From Polymyxa betae (taxonomy: Eukaryota; Endomyxa; Phytomyxea; Plasmodiophorida; Plasmodiophoridae): a stretch of 64,000 nt of DNA. Position 1 is the stretch's first letter, and every line of letters starts with the position of its first letter. Below, piece by piece: positions 184 to 33,863 of the stretch. Both the position numbers and the translations under genes were made by a program. The notes under the pieces were generated by a model. It saw nothing but the letters and a program-made list of their open reading frames with translations, was not told where the DNA came from and did not search any database. The stretch spans positions 1 to 64,000 of the forward strand of contig RBZT01000261.1 in NCBI GenBank assembly GCA_003693705.1, written 5' to 3'.

Positions 184-194
184 GTAGAAAGGGA

Positions 195-212: not shown

Positions 213-278
213 AGTGGCCTCTTGTATCGTTCCAATCATGATCCTGTTTGTTTTTCATTTCTTTTTGAATATTGAAGC

Positions 279-2151: not shown

Positions 2152-2280
2152 TAATTTGATCTCCAATCCTAACTCCACACTGCGTTATTCTCAATAAAAC
2201 TTTTGAAGATCAGAAATTCGAAGAGAAACTTGATGGGTCATCACTTCGGAAACTGAGACGGAAAGTGATCGTCATCTGCA

Positions 2281-4238: not shown

Positions 4239-4440
4239 TTTCACTTCTGCTAAAGCGATATATGATTATAAATGTTTTGACTTATTAAAGTTACAAACCT
4301 AGCGTAGGCCATACCGTGATACTTGCCAAGCGTTAGCGTTCACCCGACAAACGCGTGGTTTGAAAAAATTAGAGCTTTGAATTGGGAAGTGATCACTTGA
4401 ACGGAACGAGGGCAAAACAACATGACCAACAGCATCCCTG

Positions 4441-4836: not shown

Positions 4837-4922
4837 ACCAACATGATATCTAACACCATGAGGTAGGATTCGATGAGTTAAGAAGATGTATTCTTGCGAT
4901 CTCTCGTAATGTTTTATTCTAG

Positions 4923-5866: not shown

Positions 5867-5923
5867 TCTGCAAGCAATTACAATCAGGAATTTATAGTTG
5901 GCATTGGAAGAGAAGTAAGCAAT

Positions 5924-6943: not shown

Positions 6944-7425
6944 AGCGAAGTTGGCGGCCGTCCAAGCGGAATGAGATCGATAGCCGATAGGGGTCGATGG
7001 CGGATCCCTCTTCCGGACTAAAATTCCGCACATAATCTGCCGGCTCGGCGGGCTTGACAGCTGATTTGCAACAAAATGTTTCCGGTTATGTTCCCGTGAA
7101 ACGGTGTCCAGCAATCTAACCTGACGACTTGGTGCCTGTGAGCATGAATTAATTTAAAATTATGTTTTCTGTACGCGAAGCCTGTTATCCATCATGGTTG
7201 AATTTAATTTTTATATAAATCGAAAACAGCTCTGAAAATCTGAGTTTCTAAAAGTTGAGAAATTATTATTCAGGATAATGATAGAAATGTGATTTCGGTT
7301 TCCGAGATGACTAATATAATATAAACTGTGTTTTCGTTCGAGTACCATAGGCAACCCTGTAGAGAGACATCAGCTCGATTGGATCGAATCTCTGTATACG
7401 CATTCCTTAATCGGAGCTAGAAGTA
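6944..7425. other. divergent intergenic region, elongase / gamma-SNAP
   Basis: About 480 bases separate the divergent starts of the elongase and gamma-SNAP. The first 170 bases are still open in the elongase frame; the rest is AT-rich (7140-7330) and presumably holds both promoters. I see no further gene. Confidence 0.5.
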
Positions 7426-8485
7426 ATGCCGGCGGAGATGGAGGGCGACGAGCTCGTGGCCAAGGCTCGCAAAGCTCATACTAAAAATCTGTTTAATTGG
7501 ACGGCGGATTGGGCGTCAGCACTGCTGTACTATGAGCAGGCCGCCAACGCCTACAAGAAAGACGCCGGTGCCAGTTGCCAGACAAAAGCTGTTGAAGCCT
7601 TGCGCCAGGCGTCCAAAGCAGCGGAGGAACTATCTAACGCTAACGCTGCCGCAAAGCATTTATCAGCGGCTGCCGCGATAACCTTGAAACTTGGCGATAA
7701 GGTATTGATGGTTTCAACATTCGGCAAAAGTTAAAAGAAAACTGCAGAACACTGCGGTAGCTTTAATGAAGGATGCTGGGAAATTGTATCAGGAGAACAC
7801 GCAAGCCAGAAAAGCCGCCGAAGAACTTACTAAAGCTGCCGGATGGATTCGAGATGAGAATCCTGATCAGGCTTATGCCTTGTATAGCGATGCCTGCGAC
7901 ATCTACGAGACCGAGGGCCAGACTCAAATGGCACAAGACCTGTACAGGACGGCTTTGGCGTTCCTGATAAGGGAGAATCGCCTCTCGGACGCCATTAAAC
8001 TTTTGACCAAGCAGAACAAGGGCTTATTCAAACACATCGGTTCTTTTTCGGAGGCCTTTAATAAGAATTGCCTGAACGTTTGCGTGTTGCATCTGTCTTG
8101 CCGCGAGACACAAGAAGCCGCCATCAAGTTGACCGAATTTCAAAGGTAGCTCCACTGCTTCCTTGCTGTTAATGTTGTTTAGTGCCGTCGCAGCGCTCCA
8201 TCGAACTTTCTAAACTCGAATGAGGGCACCTGTGCGCAAGCACTCGTCTCTGCGTTCCAAGAATGCGACCCGGAAGCACTGACGAAAGCGAAATCCGATC
8301 GCACCTTAAATTACGTTGACAATCAGGTTTGTATCAAAGCTTTTTCTAGAGCTGAAAATACTGAGTGCTGGTACAAGATTGCTCGATTGGCCCGGGATCT
8401 TACTATTGACGATTCGGCAAGAGAAGCTGCCAAAACGATGGGTGCTGCAGCTGCGTCAGGCGGTGATGAGATCGACTTGACTTAG
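7426..8485 (+). CDS. NAPG: gamma-SNAP (NSF attachment protein)
   Basis: Soluble TPR-like helical-repeat adaptor that recruits the ATPase NSF to SNARE complexes for disassembly on membranes. Exon 1 (MPAEMEGDELVAKARKAHT to KLGDK) and exon 2 (NTAVALMKDAGKLYQENTQ) contain the characteristic ADWASALLYYEQAANAYK, KAAEELTKAAGWIRDENPDQ and YALYSDACDIYETEGQTQ helices. An intron after LTEFQ and a 54-nt intron after NYVDNQ join to IARLARDLTID. It ends with an acidic GGDEIDLT tail, as usual for the gamma type. Length (about 310 residues) matches the family. It is divergent from the elongase and convergent with uL29m. Confidence 0.88.
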
Positions 8486-9275: not shown

Positions 9276-10883
9276 TTACTTTGGCTTTTTTTGGTTCTTT
9301 AGCAGCGATTTCGAGCGGACGAATGGCCTCGGCGCCATCGCTTGTTTTGTCTGCTGGATGCCCAGATTGCATTCGAACAGGTTCACGAACGTGTTTGATA
9401 TTTCAAATGATAGCTGCTGCGACCGAAACAGGCAGTTGTCTTGGAATTTGAGAGTGTTCAGATACGCCTCAATCCACAACGTATGACAGCATGGGTTCCT
9501 CTGTTTCACTGTTAAATCTCTGATTGTTGCAAACGCTCGATCAAACCATGATCCGTAAATCATCGCTTCGTAAGCTTGCCTGAAGCTGTTTATATGCTTC
9601 CTCTAAGTTAGCTTTGATATCGAATTTGTCCTACCATTTGTTTCAGTTTTAATAGCCTACACGTTTGATTTTAACCTCTTTTGTTGGTCGTTTCGGAGTC
9701 TCAAGAAGATCGACCAGCTGTTGCTTCTGCTTGTTTTTTAACGATCGTTTTTTTCGGTATATCAATGAATTTCTTTTGTTGTTGCGAAGGCTTTCTTCTT
9801 CAGCTTGTGCCTGATCCAAATTTTCGATTACAATACCTGAGCAAAGCTTTACGAATTAATTGACATGCCCTTTCTTATACCTATAAACAGGTTTGCAAAG
9901 ACAAAGTTCCCTATGAATACAAAGGTAATTAGAAACAATCTGGGCCAATCTTGCCCAGGATAGGCCTGGTCGAGATCTTGTTGGAAATTTGTCCAGTTAT
10001 TACAAGTAACCATATCCCAGAGAGTGTATCTAAATGAGGTCAGTCTCCAACGGCTAAATGATATTCAGGTATACAGAGCTGTTGGTAGATCAACCCAGTC
10101 ATTCGGGACGTTGTCTGGAATATCCTGTCCGAAAAGATACAGTCCTGCTACAGCGAATATGTACATGATTAACAACAATAGGACCAGCAGGCTGCCGATA
10201 GAATATATCGTTTTAAGCAACGCAACCACAATAATTTGCAATGATCGAACGAAAGATACGCTTCGTAACGCCCGTATTGCTCTTAAAGCTAGACGATATC
10301 AATTTCTCTAGTTTGCTAAATAGCTGGAATTCACCGCGAAAAACACGAAGGTAGGCCACATTTCCCAGTATTGCTATATCAAACGTGTCGCGAATGAAAT
10401 CGAATATCGAAACCACCAGAACGAAGAAGTCGAATCGGTTGTAGCTGTTAGAAAGATACCCTTTTCCTAGGGCAATGGCTTTAAGAACGAATTCCGCCAA
10501 ATAAAGGACCAAGAACACGATATCGGCTATCTGATACGACTTATTTGAAATCGAGAGATCGGGGACTGTCTTCAATGCGATGGAAACCGAATTCATCAAT
10601 ATCGCTAGCATGATTACTCTCTCAAAGTACACATTCTGTTTGGCATTAAGCATCGATACGAAAATGCCTTTCGGGATCTGCTTACATTCACGATGAAAGC
10701 GACGAACTGCTGAACCGATACATCATCCGTGTTGTTTTTGGTGTTGTCTGCAGTTTTTTTCAGGATACGCGATTACAAAACCAATGACAATGCACCACCT
10801 GATAGAGTATTTAGCTGTGCTTGCAATATTGATTTCGCGAATCGAATATCATCATCAATCGCGGAGAGACGATTTGCTTCCAT
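9276..10883 (-). CDS. CATSPER3: CatSper3-like voltage-gated cation channel subunit
   Basis: One of the four pore subunits of the flagellar calcium channel CatSper, by similarity. Start MEANRLSAIDDDIRFAK; one intron later comes DDVSVQQFVAFIVN, then S1 (FERVIMLAILMNSVSIALK), S2 (IADIVFLVLYLAEFVLKA) and S3. The S4 sensor has five arginines at every third position (LRVFRALRAIRALRSVSF), followed by S5, a pore loop LYTLWDMVTCNNWTNF and S6 (ITFVFIGNFVFANLFIGI). The tail is Lys/Gln-rich and ends in a segment, LWIEAYLNTLKFQDNCLF, that matches the C-terminal domain of animal CatSper3, supporting that specific subunit. The filter position usually Asp is Asn here. At least seven introns. The C-terminal exon join near 9650-9600 is inferred; without it the protein would stop at 9649. 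Confidence 0.85.
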
Positions 10884-14186: not shown

Positions 14187-15142
14187 TTAATGATCTTTAT
14201 CTGTATCAACGCGATTTCGGTCACATTTAGAATTTATCTTTTTTCTGACTTGTCGGATCAAAGCTTCCACAGTTTCATCAGGCTCTAAATGCATTGATTT
14301 CATAGCGTCATACATCTCTACGCACCGATGATGGTTTCGCCGTTTAGCGTGCATGTGGATCATCATGGAGTACGTGACAGCATCTGGTTTTACATTCCAG
14401 CGATCGATATCTTTGAAGATGGAATCAGCAAGGTCGATGCCTTGGCACCTTTCGGCAGCAGATATAATAGCTGTGTAAGTTATGGCATCCAGTTGGACGC
14501 GTAATGTTCTTGATTTACATAATAAGCTAAAAACAACGTTAAATTGTCCTTCAGAGTTACAGTTTTGGAACAGAAACAGAAATGTTTTTCTATCAGGTGC
14601 GATATTTTTAGTTTGCATCTCCTTGAGAATGTCAAAGGCCGATTGCATCGAGGAGATACTCAGTAAGGCATTATAATGGAAGGCCTAAACCTGTCAACAT
14701 AAAAAGAACAATGAAATAGATGACTATACTACCTTGGCAGAATATCTTTGCTGGTACGATACGAATATTTTTTTGGCGACGCCAAGTGATTTCATTTTGA
14801 CAGCTTCCACTAGAGAATCGCCTAAGGCTTTCCCAGTGACTCGCAAACGATCCTGGAGGATTCGTTTTCGAGTCTTGGAATCCGTTGTGGTCTCAGCCAT
14901 GCTGCGGGATCGGTCGGCATCGTTGCATAACGCTTGAACCGTTCGTAACAGCCGCTGCTCAGCTGAAGAAACCGTCTTAACAGGCTCCTGCACGCGGCAA
15001 TTAATAAAAAAGGGAAAGCTGGAAATGAGAACCTTACAAGTTTCGCAAGAAGACGGTCGAAGCATGAAGCAGTTTGAGAAGGTTGCAAACGATTACTCGC
15101 CACGTTGGAATGGCGCCGGATGGCTGAGAACAGCGTTATCAT
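14187..15142 (-). CDS. pentatricopeptide-repeat protein, probably mitochondrial
   Basis: RNA-binding helical-repeat protein. Exon 1 encodes an N-terminus like a mitochondrial presequence (MITLFSAIRRHSNVASNRL). Two introns (about 15037-14988 and 14733-14686) lead to PPR units: AFHYNALLSISSMQSAFD with ILKEMQTKNIAPDRKTF, ITYTAIISAAERCQGIDLA with IFKDIDRWNVKPDAVTY, and SMMIHMHAKRRNHHRCVE with MYDAMKSMHLEPDETV. About four units in roughly 280 residues is short for the family. Likely role is processing or translation of an organellar RNA; the target cannot be told. Confidence 0.8.
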
Positions 15143-15303: not shown

Positions 15304-18300
15304 CTAACTTGACGTTGCCCTTAAGGCCTTTACTAAAGGCAAGTTTTCGAAGACACCAAAGTTCTGAGCTATCCCCAGCAAACTAAACGACAGCCAGTCG
15401 TTGCATGTCTGTTGGTCGAAATACGCCCCGTATCTGTACAATAATGGGTTAAATGAACTTGCTTGACGATTCAAAACAGCATACGCTAATAACATCAAAG
15501 AGACACCGACAACTAGAACGGCAATCACAGAGTAGGCAGCTATCAGGACTGGACTGCATGATACGTACTGGACTCCCATCTGTCTCTCAGCAGGTATAGC
15601 ATTTCTTATGTGATCAATGCGGTCGACCAGTCTCCGCCAGGAACTTTTCTCCTTCTCATTCATCGATTCATATCTCATTTGTTTCAACCGGGACAGCTTA
15701 GCTTCAGGATTTTGGATTTGATAAGGCTTGGTCTTTCCTTGACCCTTAACCCAAATAGCAGACGAGTTTTGCCTCGAAAGCGTTGTTTTCGTTGCTTCGA
15801 CTTGGACAGTATTTTCGGTAGCTGGTATTTCTTTGATCGAGCTCATACGTGACAACGTTCCGTGCGTTGGCACAACCTGTAAAGCAGGATATGGAGTCGA
15901 AAGGTTCCCGGACGAAGGTTGCTTTGACTGTAGATTACTCAACGAACCTTGCCGGGATAAACTGAAAGTATTTTTGATTCTTTCGGTGACGTCAGCTACC
16001 AGGCCGCTCGAAGTTCCTTGCTGAGGCGCTTTGGAAGCTGTTGGGGAACTTGTCAACTTAGGGGAATTCTTTAAAGCAGGGTGGGCTGCAGCTTGTTTCC
16101 CAGCTTCTGTTGAATCTTGTTTAGGTTGAGCAGGGAATGAAACGACCTCAGCCTTCTGGAAACGATTTGACTCTGTAGTTTCAATCGCCATGTATAATCG
16201 GTTCTTAGCAAACGACCTGTTCTTTGTTGAAGAGGCTGATGGTGCTAACTGCTTGATTGCATCCGATCCAGCCGAATTACTGGGCGGTTCAGCACCTGAT
16301 GCAGAGCCTGCTGGATTCTGATCACTGCTGCCATCCGGTGGACGTGCAGTAACATCGAATTGTGGAAAATCAGCAATCACAATTGGAAGAGATTGCGATT
16401 GGCTTGCTCTGTGTGCAGTTAACGACCAGGCAGTGGCAATCTCATTAGATGGATGAATCTTTAAGCGCGAATTGGTTGTACTTGTAAGTTGTTCATTAAG
16501 CGGTTTCTTCTTTACTAGAGGTAAAGAGAAAGTCTAGCAGCAAGATATCAGAACTTCAAACAGACCTTGACATTCTTCTTCTTACCAATCCTTTTCGAAA
16601 CCGGTTAAACGTGATCTCGGGTGCAAGAAGGTCAATGCCTTGCTCTGTAAAACAATTAGAATAAGATCGAGATGCCGAAACGCATAAGTGGATTCTTACC
16701 GAAAGCCCATCTACGCTCGATAATAGACATTTTCTTGAAATGAATAAAGAAAAAATAAGTCATCATCGTGGATGCGGGTAACTAGTCCGATGTTAGGGGG
16801 GAACAATCACAGTAAAGGATGTTGGAATACCTGAATGGCAGCGGTGCAGATTCCAACTCCGACCTTCTGTTGCCAAGTCGTCTCTTTGAACCTGGTGAAC
16901 AATGCTGATAGCATCATATTGCATAAAATCGACCAGGACAAAACTACGATCCTTTGCGGGCGAGAGAGCGACATGCAATCATGAAATACCAACGAAGACA
17001 CAATGGTATGGTTGAATTTCCAGTACTCAAAAAGTCTTTCGAATATCGACTGCAAAAAGTTAACAGAGCAAAAATAAGGCAAAATGTAACTCCTTACCAT
17101 AGGCTTAATGGGTTTCAGTTCATTGCCAAGAGCGGCATCCATTGCTAGAGAGCATGAAGAATCGGCAGACGACGCCACTCGTCCAGAATGAAGCTCACCA
17201 TCCACCAAATAATCTAGTGGAATGTAGAACTTCGCTGTCGTTTGCAGGCGCTTTGCAACGTTGGCAGAGATGTCCAGATTAGAATCCACAACTCCTTCCG
17301 CCGTCACAACAATGCGCTCTTCGCCTTCAACGTGTTTCAAAGAAAGCTCAAACGGTACGACCTGATTCGGTTTCGCAGAACCATACAGCTTTTTTGTAAC
17401 CACAAGTGAATGCGACATTGCACCGATCTGCAAGGTGATTTTCACAGCTGTACCCTAAAAACACAGAGTTATTTCAGGACCATGCAAACACTTTGAGCTT
17501 ACTAGAAGCCCTTCGAGCTCGTTCAATCGCAGGTAGAGAATACTTGAGCCAATGCCGAATTGGAAATCAGCGTTCTTAACCATAGCGCGTCGGCGGGTCT
17601 CCATCACTTTCACATCCTGATAGCGACCCCAAATAATTCCCATTAACGTCACGCCCAAGATCGAGGATATAACGGCGACCACATTCATATTGATGTTTTG
17701 GCCAGTGAGCACCTCAACAAATGCTTTCTCATCAGGAATTACAGGTTTCGGTACGAAAGGAGTCAGTTGCGCCGTAAAATCGGTAGCGTGATCGCAATGG
17801 CATGACACCAAACCAGTTGCTGCCGAGACTGAACGAGTGCATCCGGATTGTGTCCAAGTTTGGTTCACAGAATCGAACCAGGAACACACAACCTGGAGAC
17901 CACACGATGGTCCCTGGAAGCCTGGATGGCAAACACACGAATACGTCCCGTTCATCGCGAGGCAGCTGCCTTGACCATTGCAAGGTACAAAAACTGTTCC
18001 ATTCTGCCAAAGACCCGGGCATGGACTCAGAGACGCGTTTCCCGAAGAGCTCGTAACTTGACTTGATGGCATTATTGTAGTCGTTGAAGCCTGAGATTTT
18101 CTGTCAGAGGTAACGCAAGCGCCAACTGCCACCGCTAAAGGATCTATCAGGCCAGATAACTTGATTTTATGTCCAGCACTGTTAACCACATTGACAGTTT
18201 GAACCTAAAACGATCGTCGTTAAACTCAATGCCTGGGATAGTCAGTTTGACAACCTTTCCGCAGATGGTCTGATTAGTGTAAGCGTACAAGTTTGTTGCC

Positions 18301-21300
18301 CAAGAAGTTGACTGTAAGCCGACAGGACCACCAACACTTGCCAGAGCTGTCGACGGAATCTCAACCGAGGCGGAGATAATTGGAGCACCTTTAGCAACTT
18401 TGACGGATTCACTTACAAACTGCTTCGTGACCAGAACTTGGGGAGCCTCTCCAGGTTGCATGGTATTCAAGGCTGCTGTCGCAATCGACGAAATGATGTT
18501 GCGGACGTTATCGCCGACCGCCTTTAGGTTGGCAGCTGGAGCCGCAGCTGGAGCCCCTGCCGATGTCGTACTAGTAGTGACGGGTCCCAAAAGCGCCTCC
18601 ATCACAGACGACGTCGACTGAGCCAAAGCAGTTTGGGCTGTGGTTGAAATTGGTGAGGAAGATTTGAGTATTCCGGAGATGAGGTTGATGGCAGTGGATG
18701 CCGTCGAAGTTGATAGCGCTTCAGGAGCGGCGGTGATGGCTTGAAGTGTCTGCGTCTGGCAATTGACTTCCGTGGCAGTCAACTGCCGATCGCTTCCAGT
18801 CGATTTGCCGACAACAGCGACCAGTGCATTGACGAGCGATGCACGAATCTGCGTTGAAGCGGCAGTATCGTTGGTGTGAGCAGAGTTTAACATTGTCGCG
18901 CCCATTGAAATCAGGTCTGTAGCTTTCGATGTATCAGCACCCTGTAATGCGTCGCCCAAGCTGCCGTTGACGAAGTTGGTGAAGAACGTTGCAATCTGGG
19001 CAGCCTTGATGGGCTGAACGGTAACAACAGCGCTGACGCTTGCGCTTATTGCACCATAATAATCCAAAGCTCGAACGAAAACAGTTAGGTTACCGCTTTG
19101 AGCATCACCGGCGGGCAGAACTGTCGCCATTTCATTGGACGACGTGGCAACTCCTCCTCCAAGAAGTATTTCTTGTTGACTGGAAGGATCGAAATAAGAC
19201 CAAAGGTAAGAGAGAGGAGTGTCCTCATCGGCCCATCCTGATGTGGTGAAGGCAAAATTGGTAATAAGAGGATTTCCGGAAGTGGGACTGACAGAGACGA
19301 GGCCCCCAAACGGAGCAGAGTTGACCGGGACGTCAATGGAAGCAGTCTATGAGAAAAAGCAATTAAGAAGCGCATTAAATCATCAGCAAAAGAATATGTT
19401 ACCGCGGTCAACTTCCCATCGGTCGGATCAATGGCTTTCACCTCGAAAGTATAAGTTTTCGATCCTTGAAGAACGTTGGGACGAAATTTTAATATGGGAT
19501 TAACAGAAGAGGTCAACAAAGTAGAAGAGTCCATTGGATAACTCGGATCTGAGACACACGTCCAGGTCACCGCTGGCACCACAGAGGGAGCCATGAAGGA
19601 TTGTGGGGTGGCAATCAGCAAGACGCTACTAGTAGGATCGACTTTCGGGACTCGAAGAGGCGCGATTGTAACGGTCGGGTAGATCTTGTTTTCAGATTTT
19701 GGACGGATCTGAATGGTGGAAGACCCAGAAGCCTTCCTCGGTGATCCATTTTTGCTGGTAATCGAAACACTGAACGTTACTGTAACCGGTTCCGAAACAT
19801 CTGGAGCGTTGAATTTCAAAGAAGGAGAATTCAATCCAGTCTCTGGGGCATATGTAAAACCAAGACATGGATTGCCTGAACATCTCCACAAAAACAACAG
19901 ATTCTGCGAACCTGGATAATCGGGATCGTTTGAGTGAGATGCATCAATTATGACTGTGCCTCCGGAGGTGTACTGCCCAGATCCAGAGATGACGACAAGC
20001 AGATTTGATGCTTTCACTGAGACTACTGTGAGCGCAGACGAGCTATAAGCCTGAGTCAAACTCTTTGTAGAGGCTGTGACGTGGAACGTGTAATTCTTCC
20101 CGGCTTGCAATAAAAAACCTGGCAATGTCAATGTCCGGGAATTGAGGGTGACACCAGTGAAAGCGACGCCAGAAACAGGCGCCCATTGATACGACAAGCT
20201 CGTCTCGCAGGTCGAAGCAGTAGCCACAGCTTCTAAGATAATGGAATCAGCAGCCCGGATTATTTTGATGGCGTCACCGCCAATTTTAACTTTGGGCGTT
20301 GCAGATTCAACTGTGATGTTCCAGGTTACCGTCCTGCTTCGAACTTGGAAAAAGCTGGTAGCAGCTAAAGTTGCAGAGATGAACGAATTTGGGGTCAGCC
20401 TGGAGAAAGTAATTGAAGATGCTTTGGATGTTGTCTTTGAAAGACTATTTGTCCAAGTGTACTGCAATGGACGCAGATCTTTCGTAAAGGATGATGCTCC
20501 AGATAGAACAACTTCGTCACAATAACGGACAGGATTTACAGGACCTGTAATGACAGCAACTGGTGCAGGCAAAGATGTAGGAGCGGATAAGGCAATCGAC
20601 TTATTATAAACCGAAATAAGGTCACCAGGCTTCAGCGTGGAAGTTGGGGAAATGTTCCAAACCGAGATTCGGTTTGAGGTCCCATTGACAGTCCCTGTAG
20701 AGTTGCAAAAGATACTGCTGCCGAGCCCCTTTAAAGTATTCAGGCTAAACATGGAGCAGGTTTTGGCGTCAGTGATGACATTTTTTGTGAAGGTCATAAA
20801 AGTGACATCGACGCTTATAGCTGTCCAAGCAAACAGAGCCAGCTTAGGGACCGGACTGGATCCGCTGCCAAGATATTAGAAAAATCAAAGCCATGGTAAA
20901 CAACACTCACCTGGATGGAAAATTGTGTTTGGTGGCAGTTGTCGTTCTCTTTTTGGCAGTGCTCGTTCGCTTTCTTGCTTTCGCTGTTGTTGTTCTCATT
21001 TTGGTAGTCGTTCGCCTTTTTGCTTTAGCCGTTGTCGTTCTCTTTTTCGCAGTTGTGGGTTTCTTTTTGATTGTTGTCGCCCGATTTTTCGCCGTTGTGG
21101 TCTTCTTTCTTAGTCGTGTAGTTGTTCGTTTGATGTTGGTGGATTGTTTGACGACAGGTTTCTGAACAGCCTGGTAGAGAGCTTCCCAGATTGGACTCTG
21201 ATCGGATAGTCTTGAGGAAAATTGCAGAAAAATAGATGAGCCATTCGATTGAATATAAGGCGTAGGAATCCTTGTGCTGGAATTTACCGTTGATAAACGA

Positions 21301-24300
21301 ATTTCAGACCGGGTAAGGTCGCCTTCATTCAAAACAACACTGTCAAGAAGATCATTAACAGCGAAATCGACGAAAATGATGCGAACGTAATCGGTTGGAT
21401 CGGCAGTTAGGTTAAGACGACAAGACAATCCAGGCTGAAGCATAATTCCATCCAAATGGCTTTTCAAACCAAGCCATTCATTGCGGATGGCACGAACTTG
21501 CATAGTTTTGTTCGCACACGTCTCGTATGGCACGAACGGGCATCGAGGCAAATTTGTTGAAGCCGCCGTCCGATGTATAGATGTCGTTTTTTTTAAAACG
21601 GTCCCTTTGTTAATCGTCGATTTCTTGACGGTTGCTTTCTTCGTCGTTGGCTGTTTTGTCGTCGGCTTTCTAGTTGTTAACTTCTTTACAGTCGATTTTT
21701 TAGTGGTCAAAATTCTGGAAGTCGATTCCTTTAATATCGGTTTGCTAGTCCTCGTTCTCTTGGTGGTAGGCTTTGTGGTCGAAATTGTTTTAGTAGTGAC
21801 TTTTCGGGTAATAGGCATCGTAGTTTTCGGTTTCTTAGTGGTCTCTTTCTTAGTTGTCAATCTCTTTGTTGTCGATTTCATAATGATCGGTTTCTTAGTA
21901 GTCAATTTCCTAGTGGTCGGCTTCTTAGTAGTTAATTTCTTAGTGGTTGGTTTCTTAGTTGTCAACTTCTTGGTTGTCGATTTCTTAGTAGTCCGTTTTT
22001 TGGTAGTTGGACTTTTGGTGGTTGGCTTTTTAGTCGAAAGTTTTGTAGTGAGTTTTTTAGTACTACGCTTCCTAGTTGTAAATTCTCTGCTGGTGGACTT
22101 GTTTGCAGTCGGATTCTTGGTCGTTTGCTTCTTAGTAGTTTGCTTTTTTGTTGTTATGGATGACTGTGCCGTGTGCTGAGATATTGTAGGGTTCTTTGTC
22201 GTTAACTTTCTTGTGGTCGACTGCTTAGTTGTCGGATTCTTAGAAGTTACTCTATTGGTAAACCAGTTCTGTGTGGCGAGCTTCGAGGTAGAATGTCTTG
22301 TGAAATTTGTTGTTGAATTCAAAGTTAGAGTGGTAAATAAGAGCTTGCCGGAGGTCTTCGCGGTCGTCGACATCCTTTTTGTCGATCCTCTCTTCGACGT
22401 TTCATGTTTTGTAGTCAATATATGTCGGGTGGTAGGTTTCCGTGTTGTCAGGGTTTGATTGTTTTGACTAGTTGACGTGGAGTATTTAGTTGATGTTCTC
22501 TTTGTAGTTGGCATCCCAGTCGCAGCTCTGCTGGTGCTGGACAAAATTACCGATTTCGTTGTTGGTATTTGAGTTAATCTCTTGGTAGTTGAATTTACCG
22601 GGTTCGACATCTTGGCTGAGGAGATTCTTAATTTCGTAGTTGTGGTATGGGCGAAATCAGTCTTCGTCGTGGAATACTGACCCTGCGTGACGAGTTTTGC
22701 TGTCCCTACAGTGGCCTTTACTGTAGGCATTGCTGTCGAGGAGGATGTTAAGGGCCCTGTCGTAATGTGTTGAAAGAATGTTGGGGCTACAGTTGAAGCT
22801 GGTGGGCTTGTGTAATAATGGGTCCAATTCGATCCAAGCACATTACCAATGTGCGACCACAAATAGTTCCAGTGTTGCCCGTAAGCAAGACTACTGGGCC
22901 AGTAGGTGAAATAATTTACATCTCCAGAGAGTGGTAATCCGTTAGAGCCATCGTCGGCTCCTCCAAGGTACACTTTATCAGTACTCCTTGACAAATGAGA
23001 AGCAAACGATAGTGATGATATTGTGAGAGGAGAATAGGGGTTCTGGCTTGTCAGCTAGTTGTTACAAATTATTGAATTCGAACGAAATCGCGAAATGCCT
23101 ATCAGATTACCTGCTGGTAACATATCGCAGTTGTCCCCGAAATGGTCAGAGCAACGAAACTCCAATCGCTTGCTAAAACTTCAAGCGGGCAGTCCAGCTC
23201 AAGGTCCACGTTTCCGCTGTAGTCCTTTGATTTAAAAGTAAGCCTATTTCAATGACGTAAGTAAATTTGGCTTTCACCTATCAAGCTTACTTAAAATGCG
23301 TGATACCAGCAGAAACCAATAAAGCTGGATAATAATCTCCTTCTGGAGTATTTGGGGTCTGAACCTTAAATATTGTATCAATGAAGTCGATAGAGTCGAC
23401 TTTGACGAACAGAGCGAAGCTGAAATTTTGATTAGCAGTCATGTTTACTACACCGTCGCCGACAATGAGATCATAAGCGGGCTGAGCTACGTTCGCAACA
23501 AGCAAATTTCCAAGAGTGTATGTTAACGTTGACATGGAAGGCATCATGGAGAACGATGTTGTCGCTAGCCTGTGAGTAGTTGATGATTTGGATGGTGACA
23601 GATGCAATGTGGATAGATCCGAAGAAGAGGTTGTTGTGCTGATCTGTTTGACTGATGTTTGAGGCGTTGTAAGACGCTTTGTACTATTGAATGCCAAGAT
23701 CGTTGTCGTAGATAGCGTCGTAGCCGGCTGGGCGGTTGTTTTCACCTTTGATGTCGCCGCTATTGCTGTTGTTGTCTTGACCGCTGATGGCTGCAAAGTG
23801 GTTTGATGCCCAGTCATCGACTTGGTTGTTGTCCATCCGCCTCTTGTTGGAGATGTCGTTGCAGACCTTTTTGTCGTTTTTTGTGGCGACAATGTTGTAA
23901 AAGGTGACGTAGTTTGCAGGCTTGGCGACGGAGGTTGAGGGTTAGCAGTTGGTGGCGGATTGGTGTAGTATTGCCACCAATTTGGTCCCAGCACGTCGTC
24001 AATGTGCGACCATAAGTAATTCCAGTTTTGCCAGTAAGCAAGACTGCTCGGCCAATAGGTGAAATACGATACGACACCATCCATTGGTTGCCCTCCGGTT
24101 CCGTCATTAGCTCCACCAAGATATACAAGATCAGTACTCCTTGGTAGATTCGGTGTAAACGAAACAGAGGACGTAATGAATCCAGAATAGGGAGATTGGC
24201 TTGTTAACTAAGGCCAAGTTAGCAAGCAAAACGAAATCGTTGTCATTTGCCATTTACCTGTTGATAACAAGTTGCAGTGCTTCCTGAAACAGTCATGGCA

Positions 24301-27300
24301 ACAAAAGTCCAATTATTAGCTTGCAATTGCAATGGACAGTCCAGATCCAAGTTAGCACTACCATTGGAGTCGACCGACTTAAAAGTGAGCCTGAAAATTA
24401 ATCAGAACAACCCATAACCAGAACTGGCAAGCCGACTTGTAATTCAAGATGCCAGCAGAGACCAATAAAGCCGGATAATATTCTCCTTCAGGAGTATTTG
24501 GCGTCTGGACCTTGAACACTGTATCAAAGAAATCAACGGATTGGACTTTGAGAAAGAGGGCGAAGGTGAAGTCTTCAGAAGTTGTCACGTTTACAATACC
24601 GTCACTGACAGTGAGGTCATAAGCCGGCTGAGCCGCATTTGAAACAAGTAAGTATCCAGGAGAATAAGTAATTGGTGCCGGTGTAGGAGCTGGAGTGGCA
24701 GCTGGTGTAGTCGATGCGATTGCTGTAGTTTGGATCCTTGTCGTGGATTGCTTAGACTGCGAAAACATCATCACTACAGAGTTTGTCTCCAAATGCTCTC
24801 GAATACTCACCAAAGATTGTGTTACAGTTGAATTCTGGGCGGTTCCATTTGGATGCAATGTAGCCTTCGCGGTGGTTGACATAAACGTTAACTTGGAGGT
24901 GGTTTTTGAAAGGCTAGTAGCCAGTTTTGTGGACAATTTAGAAGTTGTTGTAGCTGAGCTTTTCGTGGTTAATAACGGGCTCGTCGCGGTCGTCGCAGTT
25001 GTCGATTTTGGCGTCACCTGAAATGTCATGGCAATTGTCGAATTTGGCGGCTGAGTGGCAACTGGTGCAGTCGATGCGATTCCGGAAGTTTGGATCTTAG
25101 TCGTAGATTGCTTAGACTGCGACAAACCATCATCATTACAGAGTTTGTCTCTAAATGCGCAAGTACTCACCACAGTTTGTGTTACAGTTGAGTTCACGAA
25201 GGTTCCATTTGGATGCAATGTAGCCTTCGCGGTGGTTGACATAAACGTCACCTTTGAGGTGGTTTTAGAAACGCTAGTAACCAGTTTTGTGGACAGTTTA
25301 GATGTTGTTATAGCCGAGCTTTTGGTGGTTAATAACGGGCTGGTCGCTTTTTTCGCAGTTGTCGATTTTGGCGTCACCTGAAATGTCCTGGCAGTTGTCG
25401 AGTTCGACGGCAATATAGTATGAGAAATCTTAATCGTTGAGTTCGGCGGTAAACCATGTGAAGTAGTTGATCCTATTTGAGTTGTTGCTTTCACAAAAGA
25501 ACTGTTAGCAGATGACGTTGGCTTCAAAGAAGTAGTAAATTTGGGGGATACAGACGGAAACACAGTCATTGTAGATGCTTGGCCGAGCAGATCGAGTATA
25601 TGTTGATTCCGGTAGCTATAAACTTGCCACAGTGGCAGTGTGGCGGGCCAATACGTGAAATAGGCCACCAAACCTGTCATCGGCACAGTATAGAGATTGT
25701 CATTTGCCCCACCTAGAAAGATCATACTGGTGTTTCTTGGCATCTTCGGTTGAAAATAAAGAGAAGAGCTAGCAACAGGGCCTGTTGAATTTCCACCAAG
25801 AATCTGACAGTAAGTCAGAAAAAAAAATTCCAATCGACGATTCTACCTGTTGATAGCATGTCGCGATGTTTCCCGAGATAGTCAGTACGACATACACCCA
25901 TAAGTTTAATGGGACGTCCAATGGGCATTGCAAGTACAGAGTCGCATTAGTATTGGGACGAAAAAACAGCCTTCAAGTAATTAGAAAACTTCTTGAAAGA
26001 TGAAATAAATGCAACTTACGAATTGCCTGTATCTTTAGATACTTGCAGCGAAGGAAACAGATCTTGGTTAGGACCAGAAGGCGTTTGAACTCGGAAAACC
26101 ACATCCATCAGGTCAACGGATGAGACATTGACGAACAATCCAAAGCTAAAATTTGCAGATGAAGATAAGTCAATCCCATTGCCAACTACGAGACCCAGTG
26201 CTGGCGCGATGGGATTAGAAACCAGATTCTGTCCCGGAACGAAAGGTGGAGTAAATGGTGGCGATGTTGAGTTAGATACTGACGATGTTGACGAAAACGT
26301 TGATGTTGTAGTAGGCGATGGTGTCGGCGTTGGAGGAGGAAGTGCAAGGGAGAGGTACTCACCCAGCCATCCGGGTCCCAAAAGAGCAGTTTGATACACA
26401 TAACGGTAATTATAGACTTGCCAAAGGTTCAGTGTAAAAGGCCAATACGAAAAAAACGTAACGATGCCGTTAGCAACAGAGGTACCGTCGTCTACGTTGA
26501 CTTGGCCGAGGAAAATCCTATCTGAATCTTGGAAACCATGCGGTGTGAACGTTACCGTGGATGACAGTAACGGATCAACAGGATGATTGGAGATGCTCTA
26601 ACAATATTAGGCAATCTCGACATTATGGATTCCATTGAGTCAAACAAACCTGTGCATAGCATGTGGCTCTGTTCCCAGACACGGTAAAAGCGATAAAAAT
26701 CCAACTATTCACATCAACTGAAATTGGACATGACAACGATAAATCCAAGTTCCCATCACTGTTTAAAGAACGAAACAGCGGCCTACAAAACACTTGTAAG
26801 GACGCGAACAATTACACGAGTACAGAGCATACACTCCTGAGGTCGTAACGGCTAAACTAGGATAGTAAGTATTTCCAGGGGCAAATGGAGTCTGTACTTT
26901 GAATATGGTATTCGACAAGGTCACCGAAAAAAGCTTGACAAACAAGGCAAACGTAAAGTTTGCAGAATGACTGACATTTACAGAACTGCCGACAACCATA
27001 TCAAAATTTGGAGTAACAGGTGTAGAGACAAGCATAAACGGTGTTGGGAAGCTGACAGGATTCGCAAAAGTCTCCGTCGTAGCCACGAGAGAACTTTTTT
27101 TGGTCGTTGAAAAGACCGAATTGTTCGAAGGCATAAACTCCCTCGTTGTTGCTTTGAGCGTTAAAGCGGTACTGTTTTTCTTCGTTGCAGTCAATACGGA
27201 AATTGTTCCCATTTTCAAAGAAGTGGCCACATTTGCTCTGGTTGTTGATTGCTTGGCTGTATTAGTAGCTTTGACTTTGGTCGTCACCTCTACCGCAGTG

Positions 27301-30300
27301 GACGTCTTCACAGTTTTTGTGGTGAACTGCTGAGCAGGTGATTGTAGTTGTGATGTCGACTTAAAAGCAGAATGCGAGCTAATAGCAGAAAATCGCGAAG
27401 TTGAATGCATAGTTGCTTGAGTTGTGATAGGTAGAGTTGTTCCTTGCTTGATTGTTGGAACTTTAGTGGTCGGGTTCGGCGATTCCGCAATGGCTTTGGT
27501 CGTAGGTTTCGAATTCGAGTATGGAGATGTGATGGAAACACTTGTCACCAGCTTCGATGTCTTTTGCGTTACTGCTGTTGTCCTATGTTTGGTTGATTGG
27601 GTTGCGGTCGAATGCGATGTAGCTTGTGGAATAACAGATGATTTTGTCGTTGTTCCTTTGACCAAAGAGCTTGTCACTTTAATGGTTGTCGGAGCATGAG
27701 ATGGTGCCGATGAGTTTGTATAATACTGAGGCCAATTCGGCCCTAAAATATTTCCAATGTTTGCCAAAAGATAGTTCTGGAGCTGCCAGTTGACAAGAGA
27801 GCTTGGCCAGTAAGTAAAATAAGCAGCATTTCCCGCAAGTGGTAACCCGCTTAATCCGTCATCGGCCCCACCCAGGTAAACTTTATCAGTGGCTCTCGAA
27901 ATGTGTGGTGTAAACGAGAAAGAGGATACTGATAGCCCAGAATAGGGGTTTTTGCTTGTTTCCTAAGGTAGTATTATAAAGAATGAAGGAAACTGAAACA
28001 CTTCTTCGATTACCTGCTGGTAGCAAATCGCACTGGTCTCCGAAATTGTCAGGGCAACAAAAGCCCAATTATTTGCTTCTACTTCCAGTGGACAATCCAA
28101 AGACAGACCAACATCCCCGTTGTAATCTACTGACTTGAAAGTGAGCCTAGAAGAAGTTAAATATTTATAGAATACGAGACGGATAAAACATGTTACTTAA
28201 AATTTGCATCCCCAGATGAGACTAGTAATGCCGGGTAATAATCTCCATTCGGCGTGTTTGGAGTTTGAACTTTAAAAACGGTATCTATAAAATCGAGAGA
28301 ATCGATTTTGACGAACAAAGCGAAGCTGAAATCTTCCGAGGCAGTCATATTGAACACACCATCTCCCACAATAAGGTCATAGGAGGGATGAGTCGCATTC
28401 GAAACAAGCAAATACCCGGGAGAATACGTCATTGGTGCCGGCGTTAGTGCTGGAGTGATAGCCGTTGTGGTGGAAGGAAATTTGGTAGTAGCGATCTTGG
28501 TCGCAGATTTCGTTGTTTTAAAACCAACAGTGCTCGGAAAACTTGTAGACTTTGCTAGCCTGGTAGTCGTTACATGGGCAACGGCGGTCGTAGACTGCAT
28601 GATTTGCGGCTTGGTAGTTGTTTGAAATTTTGAAGTTTTCGCCAGCTTCGTTGTGCGAACGGTCGACTGAACTGGCAGTGCACTAGAGCTAGAAACTGTG
28701 GTTTTTTGATAGACTGTTGTAAGTTTGAGGGTACTTTGCAGCCTTGAGGTAGTTCGCGATTGGGAGGTCGACTTTATATGCGGCTGTGTTGTGGTAGCTG
28801 GCTCTTTCACTTGTTGCGTCGTCGAAGGATGCAAAGTAACGGAATTTTTCTGAGAAGATTTTGATACCGACGTTGAACGCATAATTGGCACAGTCGAATT
28901 TGGTATGAGCGTCAATTGACTGGTAACGGTTATAGATGATGTCGCATTTCGCGTTGTTCCTTGCGAACTCAAGTTGAGATGAAGAGCGGATGTAATTGGC
29001 TGACTGGGGCTCGAATGTGACCCCATGGAAGTGATGTTAACTGGAGCAAGACTCGGTAACGCAGTTAGAGAAACGGAAGGGCTTGCTGTGGGCGATGCTG
29101 TGTAGCTTGCCAGCCAATTTGGCCCAATTATATTGCTGAAATGAACAGAACGATAGTAGTATAATGTCCAGATATCAATTGGGACCGACCAGTAGGTGAA
29201 GTCTGACACCCATCCAATTAAAGAAGGAAGCCCCACACCGTTAAATCCTCCCGCATAAATACAGTCATTTAAATCCATTTGCTGTGGTGAAAATTCGACG
29301 CTGGACACATATATAGGGCCAATCGCATTCTGACTGATTATCTGTAGATGTGTGAGTCATGAGCAATATGCAACAATCCAAAATTAAGGGCAATCCACCT
29401 GCTGATAGCACGTTGCGGTGAACCCCGAAACAGTTAATGCGACGAAAACCCAGGAATTTAAGGGGACCTTGAGCGGACATAAAAGCGACAGGTTGGGATT
29501 GCCTTCATTATCAACGGACTGAAATTTCATCCTATTGAAAATTACGATTCATGGATCCTTTGAGCAAGTTAGATTTCGTTACCGTCCACTTGAGGAAACT
29601 GTTAAAGCTGGGAAATAACCTATAGTGTTAGGAGATAGCACTTCAAAAACAACAGCAGATGTCTGAAGTGAGGTCACGTTCACAAACATTGCAAAAGCAA
29701 AGTTGCTTGATGTAGTTATGAGGTCGCTATTGGCAACTGAGAAATTGTAATGTGGCTTAGTCGGAGACAAAATCAGGCTAACTCCTGCTGGAAAGGGATT
29801 CGGTGTTGAGATAGGGGCCGAGGACTGGAAATGAGGGGAGGAGGGAGCTTGTGAGTACATTATTGGCGGGCCTGAAACCAAATTCTGGTACATTAATCTG
29901 TAAGTTTGGAGCTGACCCAAAGACAGTTGTGTTGACCAAAATTCCATGTAAGCCACGCGACATGAGAGCGGAATTGAAGCATTATCAGCGCCACCTAAAT
30001 AAATCTGGTCGGTGTTCAGAATTGCATGTGGGTCGATCAACGCGTGCGCTTCTATCAGCGGAGTGAAGGAGTTGAAAAAGACGGTCTAAGCAACATAGCT
30101 CATTGCATAATCGTTTAACCAAAGAAGGGTCTCTTGACCTGTTGATAGCATTTAGCAAAGCGTCCTGCTACTGTGAATGCTGCGAATATCCAGCTATTAA
30201 TGGCGACTGGCAGAGGGCAGGTTAAAAGGAACTCTACATCGCCACCGCTGCCATACGAAGACAGCATTAGCCTACCATTGTATAATCAACATTTATAAAA

Positions 30301-33300
30301 TCATAGATATGATAACCGTACCGGCTCGACGAATCCAGTTCCACAACTGGATATGCATAAAAATTTCCAGGAGTCTGAACTTTTAGTAGAATGGACCGAT
30401 TCAAAGCTGTTGTGATATTGGCAAAGAAAGCAAACGTAAAGTTTGAAGAGCTGCTCATGGACACCTGGCCCGAACCCAAAAGAAAATACAAGCTGGGGGT
30501 GGCAGGAGCAGTAACAAGGGGTATTCCAGGTGGAGGGAAATCTGTTTCAAATTGCGGCCATGGTGTCGGCTGAAATTGTACTTTCTTGGGCAACCAATCA
30601 CTTAGCAAGAACTGTTGCTGATAATAGCGGTAGGCATCTAGCTGCCACCCACTAACAGCGAACGCCCAGTAAGAGAACGATAAAATGCACCCCTTCATCG
30701 GCAGCGCGGTAAAGCTTGAGTTATTGCTCATTACACCTAGATAGATTTTGTTTTGTGGATTGAATGGGGCTGTCATCACCGCATAGGCAACTGAAGCTAA
30801 TGGTTGAATTGGATATTGATCGACAATCTATAAAGTGCTACCAATTAGAAAATATAAAGCAATGGCGCATCAGTAACCTGTTGATAGCATACGATTTGAT
30901 TGGCTGTCCAAGTCACACCGATAAATATCATTCTCTGTGTACTCACTTTCAAGGGACACGGTAGCGAACTGAGCAATCGGCCGTCGGGCTCTTTAACCAC
31001 CACTGCAATGCTGTAAAGAAAACAGTTAGGTGCCGATAACTCTAACAGCAGTACTCTAGGCTACCTTGCATTGGTGATCTGCAAGGCTGTGAAGGTTGAG
31101 TTTGGTGACCTGATTTCAAGGATAACCGAATCAATTTGTAACGAGATGTTCATGAACATTGCCAATGTGAAATTTCTGCTTGCACTTAGATTCAACGAAG
31201 GGCCCATAATGAGATCATAGTCTGGCAACACAGGTCCTGTTGCCAGTTTGTTGGCAGTAGACAAAGGCTCGATTTGGTCAGCGGGGTTCAGAATGCCACT
31301 GACCAAAGTAGGTGAGAATCGGGCTTTCATCATGTTCCTATATTCGCCAATTCCAGATGCATTCAAACTGAAAGGCCAGAAAGCGAAGGAAGCAACTAAT
31401 CCGCCAACGAAACCGAAATTATCAACATTAAAGCCTCCGCCAAGAAATATTGAATCGCTATTCAAAAACGGGACCAGTTGGACAGTTTCTTGTGTAATTT
31501 GCATGACAGGATCTGCGACTGGGCTAATTTTCTGATCCACACTGTTCAGAGTGATGCCAGAAATACTGTGTAGACTTACTTGAAGATAACATGTCATTAC
31601 ATTGCTTGACAAAGATATACCAAGAAAATACCACATTCCTGGCTGAATTCGTTTTCCACATGGTATACCCAAACTGTGAGTTAGGGTATTACTTATGTAA
31701 ACCCATATCCTAGATAACCTTTGATTTAGTTTTTGAAATGAAATGTTCTGGATGCTTACAGGCCAGTTTCTAGCAGCAGTGCTCTAGGCTGAAACTTCGC
31801 ATATGGCGTCGAACCGGATATCGGTGAATGAACATCGAAAATAATCCCGGTTTCCAGTGCAGTGATATTTAAAAACATAGCAAAGGTGACATTTTGAGAA
31901 CGGCTGAGATCCAAACCGGTTCCAATCGGACCTTGCAAATTTTGAGGCCGGTCGACGAGGATAGATCCATTAAAAGGCATTCTAAAGTTAAAAGTATGAT
32001 TGAACGGGCCATGGTTTTGCGAATGTTTGAATAAACTAGACATCCCCAAGTTGGCATACTCTACCAATTTTGTAGTGGTTAAGACAGAAGAGAACAAAGA
32101 GAAATATCCGACGTCGGCGTCTACCGGGACGAACCCATAGCTATTGTAATCTCCGCCCAAATAAATTCGATCCGTTGGAGCAAATGCTATTTGCCCAAAC
32201 TCCAAATCCGAGACAGAAAGTACTGAGACAGAGCCATTCAGAACCTATTCACGATTGAAGTAAGAAATTAAATTGCAGATTCCTAACAAGCTAGCAATGG
32301 TAACTCACGGCTTGATAGCACAAGGTCTGACCTGGTCTAATAGTGACAGCCAAATAACTCCAGGCACCAGAGACCACATAATCTGGACATCTTAATCCGG
32401 GATAACCTAGATTAATTGACCCAATCCAAATGCTAAAAGTTGCAAACGTCAGAATCCCGTTAATCACAAAAATCGCTACGCTTGAACCTTCCAAATGCAT
32501 CCACCTGCAGAAATGGGTAGATTGAATACGTAGGACTGCTTGTTGGAGTATGCACATCAAGAATGGTCCGAATTGACGATGGTACTGTGGCTACTCTGTA
32601 GAAGAATGCAAAGGTAACCTCCGTCAAGCGAGATAAATCGAGGAAATTGCCAATAGTGAAATTGAATCGTGGTTGGGTTGCGTTCCGTAGTATTGTCACA
32701 TTAAAATCTGATGAGAATGAGGCTGCTGTAGACGGAACTTGTGTTGCCGGATTCAATGTTGGCGTATTTGTTGGAAGCTGTCCAGAAGTTAACACTGTCG
32801 AATGCCGAGTTGTTGGGTGCCGAGTCGTTGGCCGTCCAGTTGTTGGTCCTCGAGTAGTCCGTCTTCGAGTGGTTGGCTTCCTCGTAGTTGGCTTCCGAGT
32901 TGTCAGTTTCCGGGTCGTCGATTTCCTAGTGGTTGATTTTAGAGTTGTCGGCTTTCGGGTTGTTGGTTTTGGTGTCTTTTTTCGAGTCGTCGGTTTCCTA
33001 GTTGTTCTTATTGGAGTTGTCGGCTTTCGTGTTGTTGGTTTTCGAGTTGTCTGTTTTTTGGTCGTCGGCTTATGAGTCGTGGGTTTTCGAGTCGTTTTTC
33101 TTCGAGTAGTGGGCTTTCGGGTGGTCGGCTCATGAGTTGTGGGTTTTCGAGTCGTTTTTCTTCGAGTAGTGGGCTTTCGGGTGGTCGGCTTCCGAGAACT
33201 TGGTTTTCGAGTTGTTCGTCTCGAAGTCACTGGCTTTCGAGTGGTTCCCTTCACCGTCGGCTGTCGGGTTGTTAGCCTTTTCGTTGCCAGTTTGGTGGTC

Positions 33301-33863
33301 GGCATTCGAGTTGTTGATTTTTTCGTCGCTCTCCGGCTGGTAATGGCGGGCTTCTTTGTCGTGCTAATTCTTGGTGTTTGCAGTACTGCAGTTATGAACC
33401 CTTTCCATCCAGAAAATTGCCCAAACGAATTCGTGTTAAATTGTAATTGAGCCCGATTCGAAAAAGTTGAATAAAACTGTGTTGGGACGGTTGGCGTCCC
33501 ATTCAATGATGCAAGCATTACATAAGATGTTGCCGTATCAAAAAATCTGACAACATCAGCCCCGCGCTCGGTGTTAAATTCCACAAAAGTGATTCGAATG
33601 ACATATCCGGGTGGAGAAGTGATGTTTAGCCGACATTTCGTGTTGGGTAAATATGCAGGTAGGCTGAAATCCTGACTAGTAATGGCCGTCCACTCATTTG
33701 GTTGGGCAGAGACGACTGATGTCGAATTCAAAGTACATGATACATAGCTTGTCAAAGCACATTGTGGTTGCGATGTCTGCGAACTGACAATTTTAAGATA
33801 TACAATGGCGAAGATCACCCATTTCCTGAGTACTGAAATTCCGAGGCCAATATTCTTCACCAT
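15304..33863 (-). CDS. giant polycystin-1-like receptor: CUB, basic Thr stalks, 10 LamG-like, REJ, EGF, GPS, TM
   Basis: One gene of 18.6 kb, roughly 5,000 residues or more, read through dozens of short frame-keeping introns. In protein order it shows a signal peptide (WVIFAIVYLKIVSSQTS, about 33820-33775), a CUB-like domain (CRLNITSPPGYVIRITFVEF) and a basic Thr stalk of TTRKPTT-type repeats. Ten LamG/concanavalin-fold units follow (about 32700-22800) with Ser/Thr linkers, then a second Lys/Thr stalk, a second CUB-like domain (CRLNLTADPTDYVRIIFVDF) and a third stalk of RTTTAKK units. PKD-like and REJ-like modules (20.9-18.2 kb) precede an EGF domain (CNGQGSCLAMNGTYSCVC), a GPS motif (CHCDHATDFTAQL) and a first helix (VVAVISSILGVTLMGII). 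A C2- or PLAT-like beta domain leads to MSLSRPQRIVVLSWSILCN, typical of polycystin-1. A long Ser-rich cytoplasmic loop, helix LIAAYSVIAVLVVGVSLML and a short C-terminus end it at 15304. The polycystin TOP domain and pore are absent. Likely a surface adhesion or signalling receptor; ligand unknown. Confidence 0.82.
20925..21150 (-). repeat. RTTTAKK repeat stalk next to second CUB
   Basis: Coding repeat with units like KRTTTAKAKRRTTTKMRTTT directly after the second CUB-like domain. It is extremely Lys/Arg/Thr-rich and ends at the splice donor at about 20924 leading to the PKD/REJ exons. Together with the 21590-22750 TTKKPTT region, the second CUB is flanked by basic Thr stalks on both sides. 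Confidence 0.8.
21590..22750 (-). repeat. basic Thr-rich stalk repeats (TTKKPTT type)
   Basis: About 390 residues of degenerate TTKKPTT/TTKKLTT units between LamG unit 10 and the second CUB-like domain, all in one uninterrupted exon (22994-20925). Lys dominates here while Arg dominates in the first stalk. The regular ACN/AAR codons leave long hydrophobic ORFs on the opposite strand, which are artefacts. Confidence 0.85.
22800..32700 (-). repeat. array of ten LamG-like domain units with repeated intron pattern
   Basis: Each unit opens with a block like DLIVGDGVVNMT, a strand FALFVKVDSIDFIDTIFKV, QTPNTPEGDYYPALLVS, then WSFVALTISGTTAICYQQ, then DKVYLGGADDGSNGLPLSG, YFTYWPSSLAYWQ and LGPNWxxYYT. 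This is the LamG_3/concanavalin-like lectin pattern. FA[FM]F/FALF strands occur at about 32600, 31890, 31160, 30430, 29680, 28310, 26940, 26120, 24540 and 23400. Introns recur at the same places in the units (after the YPALLVS segment and at CYQQ), showing duplication of an exon set. Units 6, 9 and 10 are the most alike; units 1-5 have short linkers, most later ones long Ser/Thr linkers. Confidence 0.82.
24692..25411 (-). repeat. 360-bp direct tandem duplication in a Ser/Thr linker
   Basis: Two adjacent copies, offset exactly 360 bases (for example TCGATGCGAT at 24711 and at 25071), lie between LamG units 8 and 9. The duplicated block contains part of an exon, a short intron with both splice sites, and part of the next exon. 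The copies encode near-identical peptides (PLLTTKSSATTTSKLSTKL and related) with scattered substitutions. Confidence 0.85.
32780..33370 (-). repeat. basic Thr-rich stalk repeats (TTRKP type)
   Basis: Coding tandem repeat of 5-7 residue units such as TTRKPTT, TTRRKTTRKPTTHKPT and variants. Thr would be heavily O-glycosylated in a mucin, but the Arg/Lys at every unit makes this stalk strongly positive. DNA units are degenerate at third positions, so it is an old, selected repeat rather than a fresh microsatellite, apart from a near-identical pair of roughly 60 bases at about 33076-33135 and 33136-33195. Confidence 0.85.

Follow-up and report, generated by a model that had tools for sequence, protein, structure and literature searches.

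What is sensed by the large ectodomain of polycystin-1, and how the signal then reaches the channel, is an old question in the field, and the locus described here raises it for a receptor in which we detect no channel. The gene lies on the minus strand at 15304..33863 of contig C462, positions 1-64000 of which form the window (the whole stretch of DNA analyzed, 64,000 nucleotides [nt] long); the genome searched alongside it comprises 24.4 Mb in 541 contigs. A hand-set spliced model with 31 exons predicts a protein of 5,673 amino acids (aa), in which two CUB domains, ten LamG units, and three basic Thr-rich stalks stand ahead of REJ and GPS modules and a membrane part. We read it as a giant cell-surface recognition receptor made from one gene and acting via a channel partner, with a probability of about 0.55; the figure is no higher because the homology of its five candidate transmembrane segments (TM1 to TM5) is weakly supported.

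Domain order of the predicted receptor

The reading frame opens with an ATG at 33863 and its stop codon ends at 15304, the same limits that a preliminary description of this DNA had proposed. The two CUB-like domains, three basic Thr-rich stalks, and ten LamG units of that description are also recovered. All receptor features given below are on the minus strand. The N-terminal hydrophobic segment (33780..33863) is signal-like by hydropathy alone (1.81 at aa 5-23). It is followed by CUB 1 (33378..33767; Pfam CUB, 5.8e-8), while CUB 2 (21150..21551) gave no match in a Pfam scan of the spliced protein and is recognized by its 30% identity to CUB 1 and shared Cys residues. A profile of both domains found 17 PDB sequences at an E value of ≤1. 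Four of them, at ≤0.001, are each either procollagen C-endopeptidase enhancer 1 or MASP-2, and these four may be carried by CUB 1 alone; ADGRG6 followed at 0.013, and a few weaker rows were non-CUB proteins. Within the genome (E ≤ 0.001), CUB matches fell only in the receptor gene and at C429, where the matching frame (79-1953 of its locus, minus strand) is secreted-looking and by eye has EGF-like and tyrosinase-like parts.

The LamG units follow stalk 1 in an array. Units 1 to 5 form a block (29111..32693) that Laminin_G_3 matches at 1e-22 in four stretches. Tested singly, nine of the ten units match this model at E < 0.01: units 1 (32035-32693; 7.4e-5), 2 (31310-31926; 0.0019), 4 (29858-30518; 5.2e-5), 5 (29111-29773; 5.1e-8), 6 (27732..28408; 3.1e-5), 7 (26364..27032; 7.5e-6), 8 (25576..26225; 1.4e-5), 9 (23977..24648; 2.4e-9), and 10 (22821..23502; 1.7e-4). 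Unit 3 (30591-31237) has no Laminin_G_3 match, only Laminin_G_2 at 0.031, and the curated cutoff is passed alone by units 5 and 9 only. A profile built from the ten units recovers exactly ten in the receptor; its PDB matches are an S-layer protein (1.2e-4) and a pentraxin (0.0088). A unit 10 query gave 20 matches in the genome, every one of them inside the receptor gene, and no second copy of the units was found. No LamG homologue was found at E ≤ 0.001 among 8,000 scored candidates of about 805 to 2,560 aa, a length range that places full-length relatives out of reach of the search.

The units also share their gene structure. All ten carry a pair of introns that agree in position and phase, one in phase 2 about 38 to 41 residues before the Cys of a CYQQ-like motif and one in phase 0 directly after the motif. 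The middle exon between them was present in the automatic model for seven units (3 and 5 to 10; the donor before it was then moved in unit 7). In units 1, 2, and 4 it was placed by analogy, so that for these three the agreement is partly built in. Among the 45 unit pairs, results were obtained for the 15 with identity of >0.38; pairs 6-10 and 9-10 have nonsynonymous divergence (dN) of 0.19 and 0.20 versus synonymous divergence (dS) of 2.33 and 1.56, and silent sites are saturated in the other 13. The Ser/Thr linker between units 8 and 9 (24649..25575) bears most of a 360-nt tandem duplication (24693-25401; 2.0 copies, 88% matches) in which a 54-nt intron was copied too. Both in-frame 54-nt introns (25170-25117 and 24810-24757) are called by their splice sites and could be coding, and the frame is kept in both copies whether the 54-nt stretch is spliced or retained.

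The stalks are distinguished from the linkers by their charge. Stalk 1 (32748..33368), which has tandem repeats with a 15-nt unit, contains 40% Ser+Thr and 32% Lys+Arg; the values are 41% and 23% in stalk 2 (21552..22820; measured borders differ by a few residues) and 35% and 36% in stalk 3 (20916..21149), and 15-nt repeat units are present in the stalks. Ser/Thr linkers also lie between the LamG units, and stalks and linkers alike are 35 to 45% Ser+Thr, whereas Lys+Arg makes up 23 to 36% of the three stalks versus 0 to 12% of the linkers. There are 82 N-glycosylation sequons within aa 30-4960. Plus-strand open frames at 21439-22179, 26971-27333, and 32602-33075 overlap Thr-rich stretches and were set aside as probable antisense shadows.

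The order CUB / LamG-array / REJ / GPS had been put forward as new, and none of the 14 REJ relatives found by capped, length-limited searches (2 from 7,998 scored proteins and 12 more from 8,000) shows it. The search giving the first two covered proteins of about 1,635 to 5,200 aa and used words from the REJ-to-membrane part only. All 14 list REJ, and PLAT and channel models are listed by Hydra PKDREJ only, some of the relatives being fragments. CUB and LamG are listed for none of them, and the receptor's own profiles of these two domains, which are narrow, matched none at E ≤ 10; one alignment (A1) is trusted for the REJ part only. Two relatives, P0004 and P0008, list PF04886, which we take to be a Pro-Thr repeat, so the Thr-rich stalks may not be unique to the receptor. 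In the part of the literature that was searched, with most subscription papers outside its reach, we met no protein with such an architecture. Judged from sequence, the order is a domain variant new among REJ-GPS receptors and belongs to a real gene.

REJ, GPS, and membrane part

The modules nearer the membrane fared less evenly. Out of the PKD/REJ, EGF, and GPS modules proposed earlier, REJ and GPS stood, and the EGF and PKD models stayed under their cutoffs. The REJ domain (18906..20149; PF02010, 5e-45) is the module expected of the polycystin-1 family. The GPS motif (17773..17889) scored 25.2 bits in the genome search, above the cutoff, and 19.4 bits versus a cutoff of 22.5 in the spliced protein; a PDB sequence search matched ADGRF1 at 1.3e-5 over the stretch of GPS and TM1. 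The pre-REJ region (20150..20851), aligned to relative P0001, carries weak PKD signals (PKD_4, 0.059), and PF22352 (8.9e-5, under the cutoff) straddles its border with REJ. Four EGF models matched the EGF-like module (17899..17988) at 2.2e-4 to 7.7e-3, and many PDB EGF sequences matched as well. The stretch at 18028..18905 would be GAIN-like by its position, and no family model matched it in the Pfam scan. Within the genome (E ≤ 0.001), REJ occurs in the receptor gene and at C401, and GPS occurs in the receptor gene only.

Whether this GPS cleaves itself depends on its tripeptide, which at 17790-17782 is His-Ala-Thr. In polycystin-1 the site is His-Leu-Thr, a pocket takes up the Leu side chain, and replacing this Leu by His gives a noncleavable protein, a result that does not extend to Ala (PMC4810088). 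Since His-Ala-Thr replaces His-Leu-Thr, self-cleavage of the receptor is doubtful.

Only part of the polycystin-1-type membrane region proposed earlier can be recognized, at most TM1 to TM5. Passes were called by hydropathy with 1.5 as the threshold, a value also exceeded by seven segments of the ectodomain (1.52 to 1.67). Three candidates are strong by hydropathy, namely, TM1 (17626..17694; 2.19), TM2 (16894..16965; 1.89), and TM4 (15469..15546; 2.82). TM3 (16743..16866, split by an intron at 16830-16782) and TM5 (15319..15408, followed by the stop) are placed by alignment, which for TM5 spans 33 columns of Hydra PKDREJ. About 190 aa separate TM1 from TM2, and about 360 aa separate TM3 from TM4. 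In comparison with Hydra PKDREJ (P0013), the score is 44 for the TM2-3 piece, reached by 3 of 500 shuffles, and 38 for the TM4-5 piece, which is reached by 9 of 500 and comes from an alignment on the TM5 side only.

We detected no PLAT domain. A beta-rich segment occupies the polycystin-1 PLAT position (17200..17562, with an intron at 17502-17455); Pfam gave no match there or elsewhere between TM1 and TM2, where a very diverged PLAT could still lie. The PLAT-position stretch shows no similarity to Hydra PKDREJ (its score is equaled in 274 of 500 shuffles), nor does the TM1-TM2 interval to the metagenome relative P0005 (350 of 500). The genome search for PLAT was empty, but its controls gave no match either. 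A C2-like segment between TMs, guessed from strand pattern by eye only, was rejected. Two AlphaFold models were poor (mean predicted local distance difference test scores of 46.3 and 47.2), Foldseek found no match at E ≤ 0.001 for either, and we draw no fold from them and no judgment of the PLAT-position segment. NCBIfam gave no match for the C-terminal part of the receptor, P0001, or P0002.

The Pfam scan found neither a seven-pass (7TM) family match after the GPS, as an adhesion G protein-coupled receptor (GPCR) would have, nor a catalytic domain or pore, and genome searches for the channel and the polycystin domain gave no match on C462. The polycystin-1 family is marked by 11 passes, a TOP domain, and a channel, whereas the chain here stops after TM5 and lacks TOP and channel; REJ, GPS, and a multipass part without a pore are instead the features of protist REJ-GPS multipass receptors. 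We read the membrane part as corresponding to TM1 to TM5 of polycystin-1 at most, with weakly supported homology, no PLAT that we could detect, and neither TOP nor pore. On this evidence, the protein is a REJ-GPS receptor with a putative polycystin-1-like anchor and is not itself a polycystin-1.

A probable recognition receptor or, less likely, a coat glycoprotein

In the reading that we prefer, the signal peptide would export the receptor, and mucin-like Thr/Ser stalks would project both CUB domains and all ten LamG units, with their lectin fold, off the cell. The REJ/GPS unit would adjoin the membrane, where an anchor of about five passes resembling the front of polycystin-1, and having no pore of its own, would fix the receptor. 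Its most likely ligands would be glycans or glycoproteins, carried either by another cell or by the coat of its own cell, and binding or pull would pass via the REJ/GPS region to a partner, for which polycystin-type channels elsewhere in the genome would be the best candidates. Such channel matches (PKD channel and polycystin domain, E ≤ 0.001) lie at C267, C415, and C378, contigs on which the genome searches found no REJ or GPS. IFT46 is encoded at C453 (1.1e-81), and the host is therefore likely to have a flagellum. Because these channel genes and the IFT46 gene are found at other places of the same genome, it is plausible that the receptor pairs in trans with a polycystin-type channel, and perhaps does so on a flagellum. 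For the flagellar or gamete-recognition role hypothesized in the preliminary description, the Ectocarpus protein described below offers a parallel from the literature. What we infer for the receptor comprises splicing, export, glycosylation, glycan binding, five passes, channel coupling, and flagellar site. Elsewhere, an ectodomain of the CUB/LamG/mucin build is known to us in adhesion receptors of animals, GPR126 being one. We offer more tentatively the idea that here, in a flagellate perhaps from the fungal side of the opisthokonts, a CUB/LamG-array/mucin ectodomain has been fused to a poreless polycystin-1 front half that gates separate channels, with the receptor and channel of the polycystin complex fully divided between two proteins.

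Several observations weigh against a recognition receptor of this kind. Many LamG domains bind proteins rather than sugars. The EGF module immediately precedes the GPS, where the preceding GAIN strands would be expected, and the GAIN fold is assigned by position only. The Leu of His-Leu-Thr is missing from the GPS. TM3 and TM5 fall below a hydropathy value that seven ectodomain segments exceed, and the membrane part shows no similarity to that of P0005 (225 of 500 and 384 of 500 shuffles reach the scores), a protein that itself resembles Hydra PKDREJ in TM4-5 (0 of 500) and less so in TM2-3 (17 of 500). The continuity of the gene is read from splice sites and frame, not from RNA. Finally, in polycystin-1 (PC1) the TOP domain is the proposed target of the tethered stalk (PMC11458180); the receptor has no TOP, so this stalk-to-TOP route is impossible within one chain.

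A rival reading is a structural or adhesive coat glycoprotein, in which the CUB/LamG/mucin part would be a surface or flagellar-hair-like adhesin and the REJ/multipass part a mere anchor without signaling. The absence of a pore or catalytic domain, the altered GPS tripeptide, and the large share of the protein made up by stalks and LamG units all agree with it. The REJ/GPS unit and the roughly 360 aa between TM3 and TM4, however, would exceed the needs of an anchor, and we consider a coat glycoprotein rather improbable, the strongest of the alternatives nonetheless. A natural receptor that combines REJ, GPS, and a polycystin-1-like front but lacks both TOP and pore would allow one to ask whether such a front half can by itself couple to a separate channel. 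According to a survey of animal relatives, complex GAIN-bearing N termini of adhesion GPCRs appear to be restricted to holozoans (PMC12716839). If a placement of the host on the fungal side holds, a comparable ectodomain above a GPS would exist beyond that group, though the receptor is no adhesion GPCR.

Continuity and ends of the gene

Exon borders were set by hand after two automatic gene-model passes, which missed or cut some short LamG exons. GT-AG borders were imposed as a condition of the model and are therefore no evidence for introns. A CTRAY branch-point-like motif occurs in 12 of the 30 intron tails (shuffle mean, 3.4), a count reached by none of 1,000 shuffles; it is the best of five such motifs tried, the other four being reached by 2, 19, 22, and 27 of 1,000. 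The introns are 43 to 64 nt long, the frame of 5,673 aa has no internal stop, and 91.7% of the span is coding. Third-position GC content is 0.40 to 0.47 across six stretches of the gene, and GC content in the window is 0.41 to 0.49 per 2 kb. Exons 27 to 30 have no second copy in the genome search.

The junction that matters most joins exons 23 and 24. The preliminary description had regarded continuity as shown and quoted an exon at 22994-20925; its content matches that of exon 23 (the end of LamG unit 10, stalk 2, CUB 2, and stalk 3), the borders of which are now 23054-20911, and the splice sites and frame argue for continuity. Read beyond its own donor, exon 23 meets an immediate stop, so an unspliced end is possible there, and two genes could then be proposed, one for a secreted CUB/LamG/mucin protein with exon 23 as its last exon and the other for a REJ-GPS receptor that starts near exon 24. 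A 46-nt intron (20910-20865) with good splice sites nevertheless links the two exons in frame. The first Met of the open frame of exon 24 is at residue 27, with no hydrophobic run or signal sequence after it by eye; because this frame offers no start bearing a signal sequence, the REJ part requires an upstream exon. We consider two genes unlikely, and a single gene of 5,673 aa joining the CUB/LamG/stalk part to the REJ/GPS/membrane part is largely confirmed at the level of the gene model.

A full polycystin-1 with its TOP/channel end lost by misassembly or a misread end, as might be suspected from Hydra PKDREJ running on into a channel, is highly improbable given the stops in all three frames directly after TM5, the ATG of a new frame at 15142 (about 160 nt on), and the lack of a listed channel model in 13 of the 14 REJ relatives, some being fragments.

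Neighboring genes

A PPR-like gene, recognized by eye at about 14187-15142 (minus strand), starts about 160 nt past the receptor stop. Farther along, a voltage-gated Ca2+ channel-like exon lies at 10213-10722 (minus strand; best PDB match, T-type alpha-1G at 1.8e-28), and a fungal-type Zn2Cys6 domain in two stretches lies at 2860-3444 (plus strand), a hint of a host on the fungal side. Fungal_trans gave no match, but neither did its controls, and the result is uninformative.

Comparison with known systems

A second REJ protein of the same genome, at C401, has REJ in common with the receptor and no GPS, CUB, or LamG match in the genome searches. It covers about 1-8345 of its locus and by eye has a single C-terminal pass and a short tail.

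Polycystin-1 and PKDREJ proteins (human PC1, Hydra PKDREJ, and Caenorhabditis elegans LOV-1) have REJ and a GPS beside TM1, as the receptor does, and Hydra PKDREJ is weakly like it in TM2-3 and TM5. The receptor differs from this family in having no detected PLAT, TOP, or pore and in having His-Ala-Thr in place of His-Leu-Thr. Unlike the receptor, Hydra PKDREJ lists no CUB, LamG array, or basic Thr stalks, and to our knowledge these are not among the known domains of the family. LOV-1 and PC1 work with polycystin-2 in cilia, and LOV-1 travels to cilia together with PKD-2 in C. elegans (PMC9829181).

Animal adhesion receptors offer a functional comparison only. Pentraxin has a LamG-type fold. 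GPR126/ADGRG6, an adhesion GPCR, thus resembles the receptor in carrying CUB and pentraxin above GAIN/GPS, but it is a seven-pass protein with one CUB, one pentraxin, SEA, and HormR, and no REJ or such stalks (PMC6954182).

Protist REJ receptors without a listed pore form a further group for comparison. In Ectocarpus Esi0130_0068 and the metagenome proteins P0001, P0003, and P0005, REJ is followed by several passes, as in the receptor, and P0005 has five hydrophobic segments after REJ. The Ectocarpus protein, from a brown alga, differs in its length of 1,427 aa, its 6 or 7 passes, and a channel-model match inside REJ, and it has a GPS as the receptor does; it is a male-gamete protein with signs of positive selection (PMC4700764). 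Taken as a parallel and not as a test, this male-gamete REJ-GPS protein would be the nearest protist case that we met.

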